Part shown: positions 11,879-31,374 of the stretch, in pieces
Layout: the number at the start of each line of letters is the position of its first letter
Position numbering within the stretch: position 1 is the stretch's first letter
Assembly: GCF_016767175.1 (NCBI RefSeq)
Contig: NZ_CP068564.1
Location: 1,302,001 to 1,366,000, forward strand
DNA: 64,000 nucleotides
Direction of reading: 5' to 3'
Source: Keratinibaculum paraultunense
GTDB lineage: Bacteria; Bacillota; Clostridia; Tissierellales; Tepidimicrobiaceae
The notes under the pieces: generated by a model
Database searches by the model: none
Told to the model about the DNA's origin: nothing
Seen by the model: only the letters and a program-made list of their open reading frames with translations
Made by a program: the position numbers and the translations under genes

Positions 11879-14260
11879 TTATTTTTTTAAATACACCTTT
11901 TCTGCAATTTTAACTGCTTCCCTTGCATCTTTAGCATAGTAGTCAGCATTTATCATATTAGCATAATTTTTATTAAGAACTGCTCCTCCTACCATTATTT
12001 CACAATCAATTCCTTTATCCTTTATAGCCTTAATTGTTTTTTCCATATTTACAACTGTAGTAGTCATAAGGGCACTTAAACCTACAAGCTTTACATCATG
12101 CTTTAGTATAGCATCTATGATAGTTTCTGTAAGTACATCTTTGCCTAAATCAATTACTTCAAATCCATAGTTTTCTAACAAAATTTTAACTATATTTTTT
12201 CCTATATCATGTATATCCCCTTTTACAGTTGCTAAAACTATTTTTCCTCTATCTATCTTTTCCTCTCCCTTAGATTTCATATGAGATTTTATTACTTCAA
12301 AGGATTTTTTTACAGTTTCTGCAGATTGAATTAATTGGGGTAAAAATATATCTCCCCTTTCATATTTTTCTCCAACTTCATCTAATGCTGGTATAATATG
12401 ACAATCAATAATATCTAAAGGCTCTAAGGTTTCTAATAATTTTTCTGTACTTTTAACTACTTCTCCCTTTAGTCCATCAAATATTATGGTTTTAATATCC
12501 TTCTCATCTAATGAATCCAGCTTGAGTTCACTTTTCTCCTTTGGTTGAGATTTATAAAAACTAATATATTTTTTTGCCTTCTTATCAGAATTAGATAATA
12601 CTCTAAAAGCTCTAATGGAATCCATCATTTCTTCATCCTTAGGATCTAAAATTGGTATATCCAAACCATAAGTTAAAGCCATAGTTAAAAAAGTCCTATT
12701 TAACAATTTCCTATTGGGCAATCCAAAGGATATATTGCTTACTCCAAGTAGAGTCTTAACTCCATATAGTTCCTTTATCTGTTTTATAGCATTTAAAGTT
12801 TCAAAAACCTGGGATTGATTTACTGATGCTGTTAGGGTAAGACAATCTATTATTATATTGTTTTTTTCTATGCCATAGCTTTCAGCTACATCTAATATCT
12901 TTTTACAAATTTTAACTCTTTCTTCACAATTTGAAGGTAGCCCCTTTTCATCCATAGTCAATCCAATTACATTTGCACCATATTTTTTAGCTATTGGAAA
13001 TATACTCTCCATGGTAGCCATATCCCCTGTGACAGAATTTATTATAGGCTTTCCATTGTAAATCCTTACAGCTTTTTCTATTGTTTCTGGATTTGAACTA
13101 TCTATTTGTAGGGGAACATCCAAAATTCCTTGAATTTCCTTTATCATCTTTTCCATAATTAAAGATTCATCTATCTCAGGTATTCCTGCATTTATATCCA
13201 ATATATCTGCACCAAGTTTTTGTTGTTCTATTGCTTCCCTCAATACATAATTCATATCCTCATTTATCAATGCATTTTTAAGGGTTTCTTTGCCTGTGGG
13301 ATTTATCCTCTCTCCTACTACTTGTATACTTCCATCAATAAATATAGTGTTGGTGGCTGAACAAACAGTAGTATAATCTTTAGGTAAAATATTTAAAGGT
13401 TTCATGTATTGTAATTTATGGGAAACAGCTTTTATATAATTAGGATTTGTACCACAACAACCTCCAAATATTGAAACACCTCTATTTGCCATATTGACAA
13501 TTTCTTTTGAAAATTCCTCTGGTGTTATATTATATATGGTATTTCCATCCTTATATATTGGAAGTCCAGCATTAGGTCTAGCTATAACTGGAATGGAAGC
13601 ATATTTTAATATTTCATCTATTATAGGGTGAAATTCATTAGGTCCTAGGGAGCAGTTAATTCCCAATGCATCTACTCCCAATGCCTCCAGCACAAATACC
13701 ATAGTTTTAGGATCTGTACCCATCAATGTCCTTTTATTATCCTGAAAAGTCATAGTTGCAAAAATAGGTAAATTGCTATTTTCTTTTGCAGCTAATATGG
13801 CTGCTTTCATTTCATACAAATCGGACATGGTTTCTATTAGTATTAAATCCACACCCATACTATTGCCTACTATTATTTGTCTTTTAAATACTTCATATGC
13901 CTTTTCAAATTCCAATGTTCCTATGGGCTTTAAAATCTGCCCTGTAGGTCCTATATCCAATGCAATAAATTTATCTTTTGCTGCTTTTCTTCCAATATCT
14001 ATCCCTCTTTTTATAATTTCCTCTACAGAATATCTACTATCTTTTAATTTTAATTCATTAGCCCCAAAGGTATTGGTAGTTATAATATCAGCTCCTGCAT
14101 CTATGTAGCTTTTATGTATATCCAATATAATATCTGGTTTTTCAATATTAAATATTTCTGGATTATCTCCAGGCTTTAATCCTCTCTGCTGTAGCATAGT
14201 GCCCATGGCTCCATCAAATAATAAAAATTTTCTACCTATAATATCTATTATATTTCCCAT
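11879..14260 (-). CDS. metH: Cobalamin-dependent methionine synthase (no activation domain)
   Basis: The ATG at 14260 is chosen because GGAGGTGAAGAAT precedes it; a longer frame from 14305 overlaps the gene before. The 793-residue protein has a homocysteine-binding barrel (about 1-290; zinc ligands in GINCSLGP and GGCCGTNP), a pterin-binding barrel (about 320-570; QIDSSNPETIEKA) and cobalamin cap plus binding domains (about 590-790; GDIHDIGKNIV holds the DxHxxG histidine). It transfers the methyl group of methyltetrahydrofolate through cobalamin to homocysteine. The C-terminal reactivation domain of E. coli MetH is missing and is encoded separately just upstream. It is the last gene of the methionine operon. 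Confidence 0.95.
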   Translation of the reverse strand: MGNIIDIIGRKFLLFDGAMGTMLQQRGLKPGDNPEIFNIEKPDIILDIHKSYIDAGADIITTNTFGANELKLKDSRYSVEEIIKRGIDIGRKAAKDKFIALDIGPTGQILKPIGTLEFEKAYEVFKRQIIVGNSMGVDLILIETMSDLYEMKAAILAAKENSNLPIFATMTFQDNKRTLMGTDPKTMVFVLEALGVDALGINCSLGPNEFHPIIDEILKYASIPVIARPNAGLPIYKDGNTIYNITPEEFSKEIVNMANRGVSIFGGCCGTNPNYIKAVSHKLQYMKPLNILPKDYTTVCSATNTIFIDGSIQVVGERINPTGKETLKNALINEDMNYVLREAIEQQKLGADILDINAGIPEIDESLIMEKMIKEIQGILDVPLQIDSSNPETIEKAVRIYNGKPIINSVTGDMATMESIFPIAKKYGANVIGLTMDEKGLPSNCEERVKICKKILDVAESYGIEKNNIIIDCLTLTASVNQSQVFETLNAIKQIKELYGVKTLLGVSNISFGLPNRKLLNRTFLTMALTYGLDIPILDPKDEEMMDSIRAFRVLSNSDKKAKKYISFYKSQPKEKSELKLDSLDEKDIKTIIFDGLKGEVVKSTEKLLETLEPLDIIDCHIIPALDEVGEKYERGDIFLPQLIQSAETVKKSFEVIKSHMKSKGEEKIDRGKIVLATVKGDIHDIGKNIVKILLENYGFEVIDLGKDVLTETIIDAILKHDVKLVGLSALMTTTVVNMEKTIKAIKDKGIDCEIMVGGAVLNKNYANMINADYYAKDAREAVKIAEKVYLKK

Positions 14261-14279
14261 ATTCTTCACCTCCGCAAAT

Positions 14280-14927
14280 TTAACCTTTTTTATATATACA
14301 TTCATCTACCTGAGAACAATTTTCACAACTTATATTAAAAGATTCTAGATCTTCCTTTAATCCAATAATTGCTGTAACAGATTTTCTTGGTATCATTATC
14401 ATCTGTTCTGTTACAGTTAATCCAATCCTATCCCCTTCCAATAATTTTAACAATTTAGGCTGTATGCTTAAAGGAAGATCCCCATATCCTGGACTATATC
14501 TAGATGTTATATTTAATTTGTATTTTTCATTGGCAATATATTGTATCTTATGTTGAACCTCATCACATACCCTTTCCACCAATGCAGTTCCACAAGCATC
14601 TAATACAAAACTTCTGGTTAAATCCCAACTTTTATAGTATTCAATTTTTCTATCAACTAATGGACCTAATGTAACTCCCATCAATGCACATTTAAAACAG
14701 TCCTTTAGGTGCTTTTTTATGCTATTCCCTTCAAGATATACATTAGTTCCTTTTAGCAATATTTTTTCTTCAATAGTATCTATATCCAATAGGGTATACA
14801 TATATTTAGGATAAGCTACTTTTAAGATTTCCTCTATACCATCTTTTACATATGCCCTTAATTTAAAATTGGCTAGTTTAGGATTTACCCCTAAATATCT
14901 TAATACTTCATTTTCATCTATATACAT
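14280..14927 (-). CDS. Methionine synthase activation-domain protein
   Basis: This 215-residue protein matches the AdoMet-binding reactivation domain of MetH as a free-standing polypeptide. The motif RYSPGYGDLPLSIQPKLL carries the conserved AdoMet-binding region, followed by GLTVTEQMIMIPRKSVTAIIG. The C-terminus has a small cysteine cluster (CENCSQVDEC). It should help reductively remethylate cob(II)alamin of the MetH encoded 19 bp downstream. Splitting the domain into its own gene next to metH is common in clostridia. It lies between metF and metH in the operon. Confidence 0.88.
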   Translation of the reverse strand: MYIDENEVLRYLGVNPKLANFKLRAYVKDGIEEILKVAYPKYMYTLLDIDTIEEKILLKGTNVYLEGNSIKKHLKDCFKCALMGVTLGPLVDRKIEYYKSWDLTRSFVLDACGTALVERVCDEVQHKIQYIANEKYKLNITSRYSPGYGDLPLSIQPKLLKLLEGDRIGLTVTEQMIMIPRKSVTAIIGLKEDLESFNISCENCSQVDECIYKKG

Positions 14928-14943
14928 CTATATCACCTAACTT

Positions 14944-15837
14944 TTATATGATACACTCCTTTTCTTCTGTGACAGCACATCTTATCTTAGAAATACCACC
15001 TATTATCCTATTGGCAACATCAGGTTTATTCATAGTATATAAGTGGATGCCTTCTACTCCCCAGGATAGTAAATCAATTATTTGTTCTGCTGCATATATA
15101 ATTCCGGCTTCTTTTAATGCTTCTGGTTGATATTCATATTTATCTATAATTCTAATAAATTTTTTAGGTAGAGAAGAGCCAGATAAATACACCATCTTTT
15201 TAATTTGATTTTTATTAAGTACAGGCATTATACCAGCCATAATAGGGATATCTATGCCTTTTTTTATCAATTTATCTCTATAGTTATAAAATTTCTCATT
15301 GTCAAAAAACAATTGAGTAATTAAAAAATCAACTCCACAAGAAACCTTTTGTTTTAAATTTTCAATATCTTTATCTAAACTATCACATTCTATATGCCCT
15401 TCTGGATAACAAGCAGCCCCTATTGAAAAATCTCCAAATTCCTTTATATGCTTTATCAAATCCTTAGCATATTCATAATCTTTTTTATATTCAAATCCAT
15501 GGGCAGGTGGATCTCCTCTTAAAGCCAATATATTGTTTACATTATTTATTTTTAATTCTTTTAATATCGATTCAGTTTCAGCTCTAGTAGAAGTATAACA
15601 TGTTAAATGAGCTAATGCTTCTATTTTATATTCATTTTTTATTTTAGAAGCTATTTCTATAGTTCTATCTTTACTACTTCCTCCAGCACCATAGGTAACA
15701 CTTATAAAATCTGGATTTAATTCTTCTAACCCTTCTATAGTATCATACACTACTTCAATAGGATATTCTTTTTTTGGAGGAAATATCTCAAAGGATATAA
15801 CTGGACTTTTAATTGAAAAAAGATCTCTTATAAACAT
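14944..15837 (-). CDS. metF: Methylenetetrahydrofolate reductase
   Basis: The 297-residue length equals that of E. coli MetF. Family motifs include SFEIFPPK near the N-terminus (catalytic Glu), VTYGAGGS, LAHLTC, LALRGDPP, ACYPEGH and ITQLFFDN. The FAD enzyme reduces methylene-THF to methyl-THF, the methyl donor for MetH two genes downstream. GGGGGAG precedes the ATG. The gene sits between hom and the activation protein with gaps of 12 and 16 bp, so it is part of the SAM-riboswitch-controlled operon. Confidence 0.95.
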   Translation of the reverse strand: MFIRDLFSIKSPVISFEIFPPKKEYPIEVVYDTIEGLEELNPDFISVTYGAGGSSKDRTIEIASKIKNEYKIEALAHLTCYTSTRAETESILKELKINNVNNILALRGDPPAHGFEYKKDYEYAKDLIKHIKEFGDFSIGAACYPEGHIECDSLDKDIENLKQKVSCGVDFLITQLFFDNEKFYNYRDKLIKKGIDIPIMAGIMPVLNKNQIKKMVYLSGSSLPKKFIRIIDKYEYQPEALKEAGIIYAAEQIIDLLSWGVEGIHLYTMNKPDVANRIIGGISKIRCAVTEEKECII

Positions 15838-15849
15838 ATAACTCCCCCT

Positions 15850-17082
15850 TTATCCATCTATTCTTGAATAAAAATAATCTACACCTAATCCTTGAGCTTT
15901 ATTAATTATTTCATCTACATTTTTTCTTGAAAGCCATTCAAATATTGCTATTACATTTTTATTCTCTTTAATTAATTTACATTGACTATATTGAACTATG
16001 TCTTCTAATAACAGATCAATATCCTTTACATCTTTAAAAGTAAATCTAAAATAATATTTTCCATCAAATCCTAAAGGTTTATACTCCTGTGTATTATCAT
16101 CAATATTTATATTTTCACTCTCATAAATTCCTTTTATAATATTTATTACATCCAATATTATAGAATTTGCTGTAGGATTTTTCCCTGCTCCTTGACCATA
16201 AAAATGTAATTCTCCAGTATTTAATCCATTTAATAAAATTAAATTAAATGCATCCTTTACACTAAAAAAAGAAGAATCCTTACTAACCAATACTGGTTCT
16301 ACTGCTGCATAGATGTTCCCATCTTTAATTTTAGATTTCCCAATGAGCTTAGGGGTTAAATCCATTTCTTTAAAAGCATATATATCTTCAACTGCTATTT
16401 TATCTATCCCATAACAATCAATATAATCAAAATTTACCTTTTGCCCATAAGCAACAGTAGACAATATGGATAATTTTCGAGCTGTATCATAACCTTTGAT
16501 ATCATCTGTAGGGTCTAATTCTGCATAGCCTTTATGTTGGGCATCCTTCAAAGCTACATAAAAAGGTAGTTCTTCTTCATACATTTTTGTCAAAATATAA
16601 TTTGTAGTCCCATTCAATATTCCTTCTATTTGCACTATATTATCCACTTCTATCATCTGTTTCAATGGATTTATGATGGGGATTCCCCCTCCTACACTAG
16701 CTTCAAATAAAAATGCTTTTCTTTTTTGTTTTGCTAAATATTGAAGTTCACATAGATTAGGAGCTACCACAGCTTTGCTAGCCGTTACCACATGTTTATT
16801 GTTTTCTAAAGCATTTTTTATACAATTATATGCAACTTCTCTATCACTCAAAGCATCTATAACAATGTCTATTTCTTCATCATCTAATATCTCTTTAGGA
16901 TTTAAAGTTAGTAAATTATCATCTATATCCACAAATCTTTCCTTTTCCTTATGTTTTATTAATACCTTTTTAATTTTAATATCTTCATTCCATTGATTTT
17001 TAAAAAACAAACCTTGTTGATTAATAATTTCATATACTCCAGAACCCACAGTACCTAAACCTAAAAGTCCAATATTTATCAT
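15850..17082 (-). CDS. hom: Homoserine dehydrogenase
   Basis: This 410-residue protein begins with a Rossmann motif (GLLGLGTVGSGV, about residues 5-16). It then has the catalytic domain with EASVGGGIPII, GILNGTTNYIL and DPTDDIKGYDTARK (about 125-215). A C-terminal region of about 80 residues may be an ACT-like regulatory domain. It reduces aspartate semialdehyde to homoserine, the branch point for methionine and threonine. The start overlaps the metA stop (ATGA). Its place between metA and metF suggests it serves methionine synthesis. Confidence 0.94.
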   Translation of the reverse strand: MINIGLLGLGTVGSGVYEIINQQGLFFKNQWNEDIKIKKVLIKHKEKERFVDIDDNLLTLNPKEILDDEEIDIVIDALSDREVAYNCIKNALENNKHVVTASKAVVAPNLCELQYLAKQKRKAFLFEASVGGGIPIINPLKQMIEVDNIVQIEGILNGTTNYILTKMYEEELPFYVALKDAQHKGYAELDPTDDIKGYDTARKLSILSTVAYGQKVNFDYIDCYGIDKIAVEDIYAFKEMDLTPKLIGKSKIKDGNIYAAVEPVLVSKDSSFFSVKDAFNLILLNGLNTGELHFYGQGAGKNPTANSIILDVINIIKGIYESENINIDDNTQEYKPLGFDGKYYFRFTFKDVKDIDLLLEDIVQYSQCKLIKENKNVIAIFEWLSRKNVDEIINKAQGLGVDYFYSRIDG

Positions 17083-17903
17083 TTACATTCTCCTTTCCTC
17101 AATAAACATTCTAAAACCCAATTTGTAAAAAATAATATACGATGAGCTTTCCATTTCATTTTAGGAACTTCATCTACCTCATCATCAAAATAATTCTTAG
17201 GAATATTAATAGATTTACCTAGTATGATATCCCGCTTATATTCCTTTTTTAAAGTATCCCTATCATATTCAAAATGTCCTGTTAAATATATCTCCTTTAA
17301 ATCTTTACTTGCTATTAAAAAAGCTCCTATTTCGTCGTTCGTTGCCAATATATCCAATTTATCTTCATATCCTTTTATATGTTTTTCATGGATTGAGAAA
17401 TATCTTGAATGGGGAACTAAAAATTCATCATCAAATCCCTTTAAAAGTTTATGATCTTTTCTAACAATATAATGAGGGAATATACCAAATATCTTATTGT
17501 TCACATTGTTTTTTGGTATATTATAATGATGATATAAACCAGCTAAAGCTCCCCAACAGATATATATAGTTGATTTAATATTGTTTTTAGAAAATTCCAT
17601 TATGGATTTAAGTTCTTCCCAATACTTCACTTGATGAAATTCCTTTAATTCTAAAGGAGCTCCTGTTATTATCAATCCATCTAAAAAGTTCTCATCTATA
17701 TCATTAAAAGTGATATAATTTTCTTTTAAATATTCAATATCACAATTTTTAGGAATATAAGTTTCTAATCTAAAAAAATGTAAATTAACTTCTATTAAAA
17801 TTTCAGAAAATATGGTGAAAAACTGCTTTTCTGTTTCAATTTTGTTAGGCATTAAATTTAATATACCTATATTAGGAACTTTAATTTCATCTTTAAAATC
17901 CAT
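17079..17903 (-). CDS. metA: Homoserine O-acyltransferase, probably O-acetyltransferase
   Basis: This 274-residue member of the MetA family has catalytic Cys116 (YICWGALAGL), the HSRY motif and the His-Glu pair in TGHFEYD. At the position that sets acyl-CoA choice it has Glu85 (TGAPLELKEF) where E. coli MetA has Gly (TGAPLGLVEF). Glu there is known to favour acetyl-CoA. This fits the O-acetylhomoserine sulfhydrylase encoded next to it. The N-terminus is about 25-30 residues shorter than E. coli MetA and starts just before ILNLMPNKIETE. A ribosome-binding site (AAGGGTGATG) supports this start, and no homologous sequence lies upstream. It overlaps hom by four bases. Confidence 0.93.
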   Translation of the reverse strand: MDFKDEIKVPNIGILNLMPNKIETEKQFFTIFSEILIEVNLHFFRLETYIPKNCDIEYLKENYITFNDIDENFLDGLIITGAPLELKEFHQVKYWEELKSIMEFSKNNIKSTIYICWGALAGLYHHYNIPKNNVNNKIFGIFPHYIVRKDHKLLKGFDDEFLVPHSRYFSIHEKHIKGYEDKLDILATNDEIGAFLIASKDLKEIYLTGHFEYDRDTLKKEYKRDIILGKSINIPKNYFDDEVDEVPKMKWKAHRILFFTNWVLECLLRKGECK

Positions 17904-17916
17904 ATTAACATCACCC

Positions 17917-19200
17917 TTATACTAAACTAAATGCCCTTTCAAAATCTTGAATAATATCCTCTATATTTTCTATACCTACAGATACCCTTATCATATCTTC
18001 CGAGATTCCTGATTTTTTTAGCTCTTCCGTATTTAATTGTCTATGAGTAGTTGAAGCAGGATGAAGTACGGATGTTCTTACATCTCCTAAATGTACCACT
18101 AATGAAACCAATTCTAAATTTCTCATAAACTTTTCAGCTACATCTTTACCTCCCTTTATTCCAAATGTAAGTACTCCACTTCCCCCTAAAGGTAAGTATT
18201 TTTTACTCAATTCATAGTCAGGATGTTCCTTTAATTTTGGATAATTGACCCATGATACTTTTTCATGCCCCTTTAAGTATTCTGCTAATTTTAATGCATT
18301 TTCACTATGCCTTTCCATTCTCAAATGTAAAGTTTCAGTTCCAAGATTTAACATAAATGCATTAAAAGGACTTAAGGTACATCCAATATCTCTAAGGAGC
18401 TGACTTCTAGCCTTAGTTATATAAGCCTTCTCTTTAAATTGTTCATAATATCTTATACCATGATAACTTTCATCAGGTTCTGTTAATTCTGGGTATTTGC
18501 CATTATCCCAATTAAAATTACCTCCATCTACTATTACTCCCCCTACATTATTAGCATGACCATCTATATATTTGGTGGCTGAATGTACTACAATATTTGC
18601 TCCATATTTAAAAGGCTGACATAAATAAGGTGTAGGAAAAGTATTGTCAACAATTAATGGTACATCTAGTATTTTTGCAATAGTTGAATACTTTTCAAAA
18701 TCAAGCACGTTTAATGCAGGATTTCCTATAGTTTCTGTATAAACAGCTCTTGTGTTAGGTTTTGCATAAGAAAGTATCTCCTCTATATCTAAATTAGGCT
18801 CTACAAAGGTAACTTCTATCCCGTATTTTTTTAAAGTTGTAGATAAAAGAGTATGAGTACCTCCATATAATGTAGATGTAGCAAGTATATGTTGCCCTTT
18901 AGTACATATATTGAGTATTGCAATAGTTATAGCTGCTTGACCTGATGAAGTAGCTAATCCCCCTACTCCACCTTCTAATTGATTTATTTTTTCTTCAAAA
19001 GCTGCTACTGTAGGATTGCTAATCCTAGAATACATATGTCCTTCTTCCTTTAAATCAAAAATATCTGCTAATCTACCTGGATCATCATACTTATATGTAG
19101 TGCTTTGATAAATAGGAAGCACTCGTGGTTCTCCTGCTTTTGGATCATATCCTCCTTGTACACATATTGTTGCTTTTTTCCAATTTCTTTTCATTTTCAT
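17917..19200 (-). CDS. metY: O-acetylhomoserine sulfhydrylase (aminocarboxypropyltransferase)
   Basis: This 427-residue PLP enzyme belongs to the Cys/Met metabolism family. Motifs include SSGQAAITIAILN, TLYGGTHTLL, VDNTFPTPYLCQPF and SATKYIDGH with the PLP lysine; the length fits MetY. It condenses O-acetylhomoserine with sulfide to make homocysteine. It is the first gene of the methionine operon, and its leader carries two riboswitch-terminator units. With metA, hom, metF and metH downstream, the operon holds all steps from aspartate semialdehyde and sulfide to methionine. Confidence 0.95.
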   Translation of the reverse strand: MKMKRNWKKATICVQGGYDPKAGEPRVLPIYQSTTYKYDDPGRLADIFDLKEEGHMYSRISNPTVAAFEEKINQLEGGVGGLATSSGQAAITIAILNICTKGQHILATSTLYGGTHTLLSTTLKKYGIEVTFVEPNLDIEEILSYAKPNTRAVYTETIGNPALNVLDFEKYSTIAKILDVPLIVDNTFPTPYLCQPFKYGANIVVHSATKYIDGHANNVGGVIVDGGNFNWDNGKYPELTEPDESYHGIRYYEQFKEKAYITKARSQLLRDIGCTLSPFNAFMLNLGTETLHLRMERHSENALKLAEYLKGHEKVSWVNYPKLKEHPDYELSKKYLPLGGSGVLTFGIKGGKDVAEKFMRNLELVSLVVHLGDVRTSVLHPASTTHRQLNTEELKKSGISEDMIRVSVGIENIEDIIQDFERAFSLV

Positions 19201-19218
19201 ATCCCCTTTCTAAAAATA

Positions 19219-19250
19219 AAAAACACTTCTAAGAAATAAGAAGTGTTTGT
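19219..19250 (-). terminator. Terminator of the SAM-I riboswitch upstream of metY
   Basis: On the minus strand ACACTTCT and AGAAGTGT form the stem, followed by TTTTTTATTTTT just before the metY ribosome-binding site. Part of the 5' arm (CTTCTTATTT) is complementary to the 3' strand of aptamer helix P1 (AGATAAGAAG), so the two structures exclude each other. Confidence 0.85.
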
Positions 19251-19263
19251 AATATAAAACAAA

Positions 19264-19370
19264 TCTTCTTATCTCTCAGCTTATAGCTGCAGGATTTAGC
19301 ACATCACCAGTATATACTGGCTGTTGCTGGGCTTCATTGGGCCAGTCCCTCCACCTCTCTTGATAAGAAT
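19264..19370 (-). promoter_or_regulatory. SAM-I (S-box) riboswitch, metY operon
   Basis: On the minus strand it shows the S-box core: TTCTTATCAAGAGAGG, TGGAGGGACTGGCCC, ATGAAGCCCAGCAACAGCC and a P1-closing AGATAAGAA. SAM binding would stabilise P1 and let the terminator at 19219-19250 form, switching off the methionine operon. One core stretch reads CCCAGCAAC rather than the usual CCCGGCAACC. Confidence 0.93.
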
Positions 19371-19371
19371 T

Positions 19372-19409
19372 AAAAAAATCCTCCCTAACATCTTAGGAAG
19401 GATTTTATC
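19372..19409 (-). terminator. Terminator between the two tandem riboswitch elements
   Basis: On the minus strand AAAATCCTTCCTAA and TTAGGGAGGATTTT form a 14-bp stem with loop GATG, followed by Ts. Its loop and 3' arm contain GATGTTAG, which is exactly complementary to CTAACATC at the 3' side of the upstream aptamer-like element. This gives a ready antiterminator. Confidence 0.85.
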
Positions 19410-19419
19410 TCAATATCCA

Positions 19420-19510
19420 ACTTATCGATGTTAGCAGAACCACCTTGTTAAAAACAACAGGTTGGTGTAGGATCAACGAGCTAACTCTCTCCCCTAACTC
19501 TGGATAAGAA
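19420..19510 (-). promoter_or_regulatory. Divergent S-box-like riboswitch element (first of two in series)
   Basis: On the minus strand it starts TTCTTATCCAGAG, as S-boxes do, and closes with GATAAG (P1). Inside are GTTAG/CTAAC, GAG..CTC and a CAACCTGTTG..CAACAAGGTG helix placed like the S-box P4 region. The stretch TGATCCTACACCAACC replaces the usual TGAAACCCGGCAACC, and the GGAGGGACTGGCCC box is changed. A terminator with a complementary GATGTTAG follows. It is probably a SAM-clan variant. A T-box was considered because of GGTGGTTCTGC, but there is no room for a normal stem I. The ligand is uncertain. Confidence 0.55.
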
Positions 19511-19586
19511 CATATTTAATTTTCAAATGTACTAAATAGTATATTATCATTAAGTATAAAATATGTCAACAATTTTTTTAATAATT

Positions 19587-20039
19587 TTATAAATTCTCTA
19601 AAAGTTCACTAACTTTCTTTTTTAAAATAGGATGAACAAAGTCTGGACATATTTCACACAATGGCTTAAGAACAAAATATCTATTTTGCATATCTGGATG
19701 AGGAACTATTAAATCCTCCTCGTTATATACCTCATCATTAAAAAACAAAATATCCAAATCTATAAGTCTTGGTCCCCATTTGAATTTTCTAACTCGTCCC
19801 ACTTCTTTTTCTATTTGAAGAAGTCTTTCTAATACTTCTCTACAGCTTAATTCTGTTTCTACCTCTATTACTCCATTTAAAAAAGTAGGTTGTTCTGTAT
19901 ATCCATAAGGTTCTGTTTCTATTATGCTCGATTTATTGGTTATCCTCATTTCGTTTTGATTTACCAAATTTAATGCATCTTCTATGGCTTTTTCCCTATC
20001 ACCAATATTACTTCCAAAACTAATATACACTATATTCAT
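19587..20039 (-). CDS. folK: 2-amino-4-hydroxy-6-hydroxymethyldihydropteridine pyrophosphokinase
   Basis: The 150-residue protein has the family motifs YISFGSNIGDRE (N-terminus), ETEPYGYTEQPTFLNGVIEV and KWGPRLIDLDILFF, and ends with the HPDMQNRYFVLKPL block. It transfers pyrophosphate from ATP to 6-hydroxymethyl-dihydropterin, giving the substrate of FolP. Its start overlaps the folP stop by four bases. It is the last gene of the folate set, and the methionine riboswitches begin about 75 bp after its stop. Confidence 0.95.
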   Translation of the reverse strand: MNIVYISFGSNIGDREKAIEDALNLVNQNEMRITNKSSIIETEPYGYTEQPTFLNGVIEVETELSCREVLERLLQIEKEVGRVRKFKWGPRLIDLDILFFNDEVYNEEDLIVPHPDMQNRYFVLKPLCEICPDFVHPILKKKVSELLENL

Positions 20040-31273: not shown

Positions 31274-31374
31274 ATGCTCTTATCAAGAGTGGTGGAGGGA
31301 CTGGCCCTATGAAACCCGGCAACCTGTTACTACAAGGTGCCAAATCCAGCGGTATAAACCGAAAGATAAGAGAG
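31274..31374 (+). promoter_or_regulatory. SAM-I (S-box) riboswitch, metNIQ operon
   Basis: It has the full S-box core: GCTCTTATCAAGAGTGG, TGGAGGGACTGGCCC, ATGAAACCCGGCAACC, AAGGTGCCAAATCC and a closing GATAAGAG. SAM binding would permit the following terminator and shut off methionine uptake. Confidence 0.96.

Follow-up and report, generated by a model that had tools for sequence, protein, structure and literature searches.

The window analyzed here, a stretch of 64,000 nucleotides from the genome of Keratinibaculum paraultunense, carries on its minus strand a group of methionine genes preceded by a leader with two riboswitch-like elements. Three of these genes were assigned by family models with scores over the cut-offs: metY, coding for an O-acetylhomoserine sulfhydrylase (17917–19200; NCBIfam TIGR01326), hom, coding for a homoserine dehydrogenase (15850–17082; NF004976), and metF, coding for a methylenetetrahydrofolate reductase (14944–15837; TIGR00676). 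A metA-like homoserine O-acyltransferase gene (17079–17903) matches NF047918 and TIGR01001, in both cases below the cut-off, and a 215-residue reading frame, known from the open reading frame list alone (14280–14927), separates metF from a metH-like methionine synthase gene (11879–14305), the 808-residue product of which is shorter than the TIGR02082 model and scores 505.5 bits, below the cut-off of 1010.85. These genes would form one operon, and the gene ahead of the tandem leader is folK. From position 19569 downwards, the minus strand presents a promoter-like site, an upstream aptamer (element A), a terminator, a second aptamer (element B), a second terminator and metY. The promoter-like site (19541–19569; TTGACA-17-TAATAT with a TG ahead of the second hexamer, 10/12 in a consensus scan) is weak evidence, since five such sites were found between 19100 and 19650 when shuffled sequences give 2.1 (sd 1.4). 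In the same interval, two terminator-like sites were found, where shuffled sequences give 0.3 on average.

The initial annotation had proposed, from this DNA, two aptamer–terminator units in series ahead of the methionine genes, and both units were indeed located (19510–19375 and 19369–19221). The downstream unit, considered a canonical SAM-I riboswitch with its terminator, proved to be exactly that: element B (19266–19369) possesses the P4 helix, scores 91.7 bits with the Rfam model RF00162 and is followed by a 10-pair intrinsic terminator (19221–19248) in a terminator scan. The upstream unit was described as divergent yet related to the S-box, which agrees with the RF00162 score of element A (19419–19510), only narrowly over the gathering cut-off (50.6 vs 44.4 bits; E 1.2e-8). 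Its own 14-bp terminator was recovered by the terminator scan as 14 pairs closed by a GATG loop (19375–19406; −17.0 kcal/mol). As for the 5′ start that the two elements were said to share, they have TTATCnAGAG in common, but the copies are not identical, the upstream one reading TTATCCAGAG and the downstream one TTATCAAGAG. Four RF00162 matches are present in the source genome, elements A and B included. The third (31277–31372, plus strand) is canonical, scores 92.1 bits and is followed by transporter genes called MetN/MetI/MetQ-like from their sequence only, while the fourth stands before a gene likewise named by sequence as metK.

Covariance searches for another known family left only the SAM family over its cut-off, with SAM-I/IV just under. 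T-box and SAM-IV identities were dropped, as SAM-IV (RF00634) had no match in the source genome at E values up to 10 and T-box was absent both from the three gathering-level Rfam matches of the window and from the 11 matches with E≤10 listed over 18900–19950. The folding energy of the element A aptamer (96 nt) is ordinary, with a z-score of −0.99 and 27/200 shuffles as good. In the Rfam alignment of element A, the room for P4 shrinks from 18 consensus positions to 2; similarly, the two alignments described below (A1 and A2) leave no space for this helix, so that the four-way junction with P4 is not found. The missing P4 and the enlarged pseudoknot did not figure in the initial annotation, which had nevertheless flagged CTAACATC, the segment containing the J3 strand of this pseudoknot. 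By its curated score, element A is a SAM-family riboswitch, and it seems to operate as one, yet it lacks the P4 helix and the G43–C59 pair of textbook SAM-I. It is treated here as a P4-less SAM-I subtype, named V.

Searching 61 related genomes with RF00162 returned 12 low-scoring matches of about 90 nt (28.6–50.7 bits), eight of them directly 5′ of a canonical match. Eleven formed alignment A1, the element of genome G001 being omitted because it is identical to that of G000, and A1 was used to build a covariance model, R1. This model gives 100 bits to element A, whose sequence is itself part of the training set, and at most about 39 bits to the canonical SAM-I elements matched between an RF00162 and an R1 scan (e.g. 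39.1 in G048 and 38.6 in G013). Applied to three overlapping sets of 249, 291 and 299 genomes, R1 retrieved 43 distinct matches of at least 65 bits, 38 with a V core and five with a SAM-I core. A pattern scan of named genomes yielded 95 stretches, 80 of which were used and, along with two viral contigs, made up 82 loci; R1 matched 81 of them (62 with a V core, five V-like but altered in upper P3, and 14 with a SAM-I, or GC, core). Because the scan pattern constrains P2 and L2 in part, the corresponding columns of the resulting alignment are biased; no constraint was placed on the P3 core. Many gram-positive bacteria carry subtype V, among them Tissierella, Anaerosalibacter, Alkaliphilus, Clostridium, Caldicoprobacter, Vallitalea and Erysipelothrix, and in one RF00162 scan six of nine V-core loci fell under the Rfam cut-off. 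For locus counts, V was defined by the sequence rule CCA[AG][CA]C ... GTGG, which leaves out the five V-like elements and a degraded one in G042 and gives 85 distinct loci, G000 and G001 both included although G001 is absent from A1 and A2.

The five V-like elements belong to metagenome-assembled genomes of Clostridia (L137, L143, L166, L167 and L178) and show CCAAAAC or CCAACAC ... GTGG in upper P3. Judging from their sequences, this change beside the SAM-contact loop could possibly reflect a further shift in specificity. Another group (L074, L075, L110, L112 and L102) matches R1 over 85–87 nt with a GCAACC/GGTGC core and a pseudoknot of the CAAGC–GCTTG type; it has other small reading frames downstream, and its best Rfam family is RF00162. 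SAM-I-like elements with a GC core were also seen in Patescibacteria (L120, L123, L157, L185 and other Nomurabacteria loci), where some precede a gene resembling SAM synthetase by sequence.

The collection of homologs for covariation, which the initial annotation had put forward, led to alignment A2, made of 88 sequences hand-chosen from the loci found, some from sister species, and fitted to the model. Its fold comprises three helices, namely P1, P2 (interrupted by an internal loop) and P3 (with the AA internal loop), and a pseudoknot joining L2 to J3, the strand located between P3 and P1; P4 is absent. The structure as a whole has 94.7% of cells in standard pairs vs 86.2% in shuffles (0/500 as high), 16 of the 30 pairs show changes on both sides, and each of five covariation measures outperforms every one of the 500 shuffles and every slid control, although such shuffle-based covariation is inflated by related sequences. 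The pseudoknot, which was absent from the model used to fit A2, comprises five pairs with 99.3% of cells paired, and two of these pairs are changed on both sides. Among 87 distinct rows, pair 26–113 is GC in 55, UA in 19, AU in 10, CG in one, UG in one and other in one, and pair 29–110 is AU in 69, GC in 16 and GU in two. In element A, the strands are GUUAG in L2 (19481–19485) and CUAAC in J3 (19430–19434). P1 is the weakest helix (85.9% paired), and its outer part, with pair 2–126 unpaired in 47/87 rows, counts against the reading favored below. The P3 loop varies in length and sequence, and the P2 internal loop is partly kept.

The highly conserved nucleotides of SAM-I were taken from a published list (PMC3764141, available in part), and their positions were mapped by hand to the columns of A2. 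U7, A12, A20, G21, C31, A36, C44, A45, U57, G58, A87 and U88 are kept in all 88 rows, A6, G11 and G56 in 87, and A24 and C47 in 85. Counting against the favored reading, U4 (73/88) and G35 (78/88) are less well kept, and G19 (10/88), A61 (29/88), G43 (5/88) and C59 (5/88) are mostly lost. The copy in the window departs from the list only at positions 43, 59 and 61, with U4, G19 and G35 present. It thereby has all four bases of the tandem G·A of the k-turn (19–36 and 20–35), for which A2 shows the frequencies given above. The P3 pair 43–59 (A2 columns 46 and 103) is flipped to C–G in 83/88 rows and remains G–C in five; element A is C–G, with C43 at 19465 and G59 at 19440. U7, G11, C44, A45, U57, G58 and U88 are each found in 87–88 of the 88 rows and all seven occur in the window copy; A45, U57 and U88 are presumably SAM contacts. 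The ligand contacts named in the available part of PMC3764141 are U7, which faces the sulfur, and the G11–C44–G58 triple, and the same source links G43 with stacking and with a ribose zipper that involves A12. The flip of pair 43–59 need not, on these grounds, abolish SAM binding.

The expression platform of element A follows the complementarity that had been pointed out between terminator and aptamer. The J3 strand CUAACAUC (19427–19434), the first five bases of which are the pseudoknot strand, is the exact reverse complement of GAUGUUAG (19385–19392), located in the loop and at the start of the 3′ arm of the terminator, and may serve over its eight nucleotides as an antiterminator strand. 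In 18 leaders of this type, the J3 strand gave 16.56 against its own terminator and 13.76 (sd 0.54) against permuted ones, with 0/5000 permutations as high. These leaders cover 17 of the 20 tandem loci described below and the metF locus; G001, G220 and G581:C1b were dropped since their elements are identical to another member, and close relatives remain. The longest J3–terminator run is eight pairs in eight leaders, seven in five, six in four and five in one. The limitation to 5–6 contiguous pairs in 5/18 leaders counts against the favored reading. Compensating changes were observed among leaders (CUAAUGUC/GACAUUAG and GCUAAUGC/GCAUUAGC). When the J3 and P1 3′ strands are taken together in 47 non-redundant V leaders, the values are 15.45 vs 13.94 after swapping (0/5000); the P1 3′ strand, which is the best-matching part in many solo copies, gives by itself 12.77 vs 12.02 (1/5000). 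When the segment that begins at J3 and ends where the terminator 3′ arm starts is folded, an antiterminator hairpin is obtained in 18/18 leaders, with a mean of −15.3 kcal/mol vs −12.5 for swapped sequences (1/3000 as low). With a permissive finder, a terminator was recovered at 76/78 distinct elements; of the two without one, L119 runs off its contig.

In the window, the antiterminator hairpin reaches −13.2 vs −17.0 kcal/mol for the terminator. The full-length RNA folds at −41.8 kcal/mol with the terminator vs −34.2 when the eight-pair antiterminator is forced, a point against the favored reading; antitermination would accordingly require kinetic control. Since the minimum free energy gives the terminator state only, full-transcript folding was dropped as a display of the switch. 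The pairings of aptamer and terminator are mutually exclusive, as in a classic OFF switch, and this is the direction in which element A would operate.

Genes at V loci were assigned by motif within 2600 nt. In this way, 26 of the 85 distinct loci have metK downstream, one metF and one metN; 27 are followed by small orphan genes of three families, and no gene was assigned to 10. A canonical SAM-I core lies at most 500 nt downstream in 20 loci and at most 600 nt upstream in none, three loci having less than 300 nt of upstream sequence for this check. The order is thus V first and SAM-I second at 20/20 tandem loci. The known genes assigned at V loci are metK, metY, metA, hom, metF and metN. Family models were run on four representatives beyond the window: two metK and one metF scored over the cut-offs, and the metN one, scanned at 236 residues, was best to MetN, below the cut-off. 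In Erysipelotrichia, the V copy before metK is the only RF00162 match at E≤0.01 in 7/7 genomes searched, two of which carry an identical element; these seven copies score 33.7–39.8 bits, all under the RF00162 cut-off.

The orphan genes behind 27/85 V loci have no known SAM link, which, along with the 10 unassigned loci, counts against the reading favored here. The first family (i) consists of proteins of about 105 residues (M-N-T-x-G ... RSQYIxYCFG) encoded behind solo V or GC-core elements (L146:2638-2949, L174:38-352, L130:6675-6986, L212:628-954 and others). No NCBIfam match was obtained at E≤0.01 for 12 members, one member had no match in phage or plasmid collections, and an AlphaFold model from six sequences (mean pLDDT 89.6) had no PDB match at E≤0.001. 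Two more small families follow solo V copies, one with a GGxxWADAMxR-like motif (family ii; L118:1440-1730, L183:650-958 and L145:2614-2901) and one with an ERYEKFxKPL-like motif (family iii; L196:3758-4036 and L117:6083-6265). Ten representatives of the small reading frames gave no Pfam match over the cut-off, and PHROG matches were weak (best E 0.006).

Collectively, two units in series, the absence of P4, a covarying pseudoknot, the retained contact nucleotides, the mutually exclusive pairings and the gene contexts were observed. Based on these sequence features, element A is very probably a P4-less SAM-I subtype, a SAM-binding OFF switch of transcription that is followed in the methionine leader by the ordinary SAM-I OFF switch of element B. 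Between the two options of the initial annotation, a steeper response to one ligand or control by two inputs, the conserved SAM contacts, along with the solo copies before metK, favor SAM as the ligand of both elements. In the proposed mechanism, SAM binding would stabilize P1, P2, P3 and the L2–J3 pseudoknot, which would hold the J3 and P1 3′ strands; with these strands retained in the aptamer, the 14-pair terminator would form and transcription would stop. Without SAM, CUAACAUC and the following part of the leader would pair with the loop and arms of the terminator as an antiterminator, and the polymerase would continue to element B, where the same decision would be repeated. Two independent SAM checks would be expected to lower leakage and to make the response steeper. 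Ligand binding, the direction of switching and the shape of the response of the tandem leader are all deduced here from the features listed above.

It is unlikely that element A has instead changed its ligand to another methionine-cycle metabolite, a polyamine or a similar compound, which would make the leader a two-input gate. The flipped 43–59 pair, the loss of P4 and the orphan genes would fit such a change, and a spermidine-sensing SAM-I variant is described before metK in Oceanobacillus damuensis (PMC10853860, available in part), so that a metK context alone is no proof of a SAM ligand. Against this, U7 and the G11–C44–G58 triple, as well as A45 and U57, are almost invariant in A2, GC-core relatives precede the same orphan family as V at three loci, and the known genes assigned at V loci are the methionine and SAM genes listed above. 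Identity with the spermidine variant itself was dropped: like V, it has a diverged SAM-I architecture and a terminator-based OFF switch, but the available description gives it four stems and changes in the contacts of J1/2 and the P3 loop, and V has no P4 and keeps these contacts. It is also quite unlikely that the P4-less RNAs form their own class within the SAM clan, with another product of the methionine cycle, not SAM, as ligand. In that case, the tandem leader would integrate two inputs, and the orphan proteins encoded behind solo copies would take part in a yet undescribed response to this metabolite.

That element A is a SAM-I/IV riboswitch appears very unlikely. With RF01725, which belongs to the same clan and shares the SAM core, it reaches 39.9 bits, close under the cut-off of 41.1, when two canonical SAM-I elements listed in the same genome score 28.9 and 27.0, and the match extends about 25 nt beyond the aptamer into the leader. 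Owing to this near-threshold score, element A lies near both families. RF00162 nevertheless fits it better, and SAM-I/IV is described in the available parts of the literature as lacking the P2 internal loop (PMC2864571), which V partly keeps, and as differing in peripheral domains and pseudoknots, with P5 and a second pseudoknot (PMC5393176). No evident conserved partner for such a pseudoknot is apparent in V, since its P3 loop varies in length and sequence. This identity was dropped. Finally, a decayed SAM-I duplicate devoid of its own ligand response, suggested by an RF00162 score far under that of element B, is highly improbable given the recurrence of V in many genomes of Clostridia and Erysipelotrichia, its strong covariation and its solo use before metK.

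Subtype V shares with SAM-I (RF00162) the P1, P2 and P3 helices, the GA of J1/2, the AA internal loop of P3 and the L2–J3 pseudoknot, together with a terminator-based platform and an association with methionine and SAM genes. It differs from SAM-I by the absence of P4, a five-pair pseudoknot, the flipped 43–59 pair, a k-turn position 19 which is usually U (not so in the window copy) and scores that place many members under the Rfam cut-off. Tandem SAM-I leaders as such are already known: 164 doublets and one triplet, thought to be pseudo-cooperative, are reported in the available part of PMC9481103, and SAM–SAM pairs have been described before hom and metN/I/Q in Bacillota (PMC12452182, available in part). 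Ordinary tandems of two high-scoring SAM-I elements were also seen in related genomes (G824:C26:22031-22359, G825:C24:71415-71723 and G048:C1:492191-492447). While both arrangements place two SAM-family units in one leader, the leader described here combines two distinct subtypes, with V ahead of SAM-I at every tandem locus; the reported SAM-I doublets may already include some V copies. The tandem SAM-II/SAM-V arrangement likewise combines two types of SAM aptamers in series but, according to the available text (PMC9481103), with unlike folds and control of both transcription and translation, in contrast to the two terminators found here. Among the titles and abstract beginnings of the matches listed in the open-licence literature, no description of a P4-less SAM-I subtype was found. 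Subtype V itself, its leading position at all tandem loci and, in Erysipelotrichia, its occurrence before metK therefore appear to be new.

If this assignment is true, P4, one of the four textbook helices of SAM-I, would be dispensable in an RNA that retains the SAM pocket and has a longer pseudoknot, and a pre-metK switch missed by the Rfam threshold would be added in Erysipelotrichia. The constant order in which two subtypes from a single aptamer family follow each other would make graded or two-affinity SAM control directly testable. In addition, the solo V copies, as read from their sequences, point to orphan proteins which appear to be under SAM-type control.
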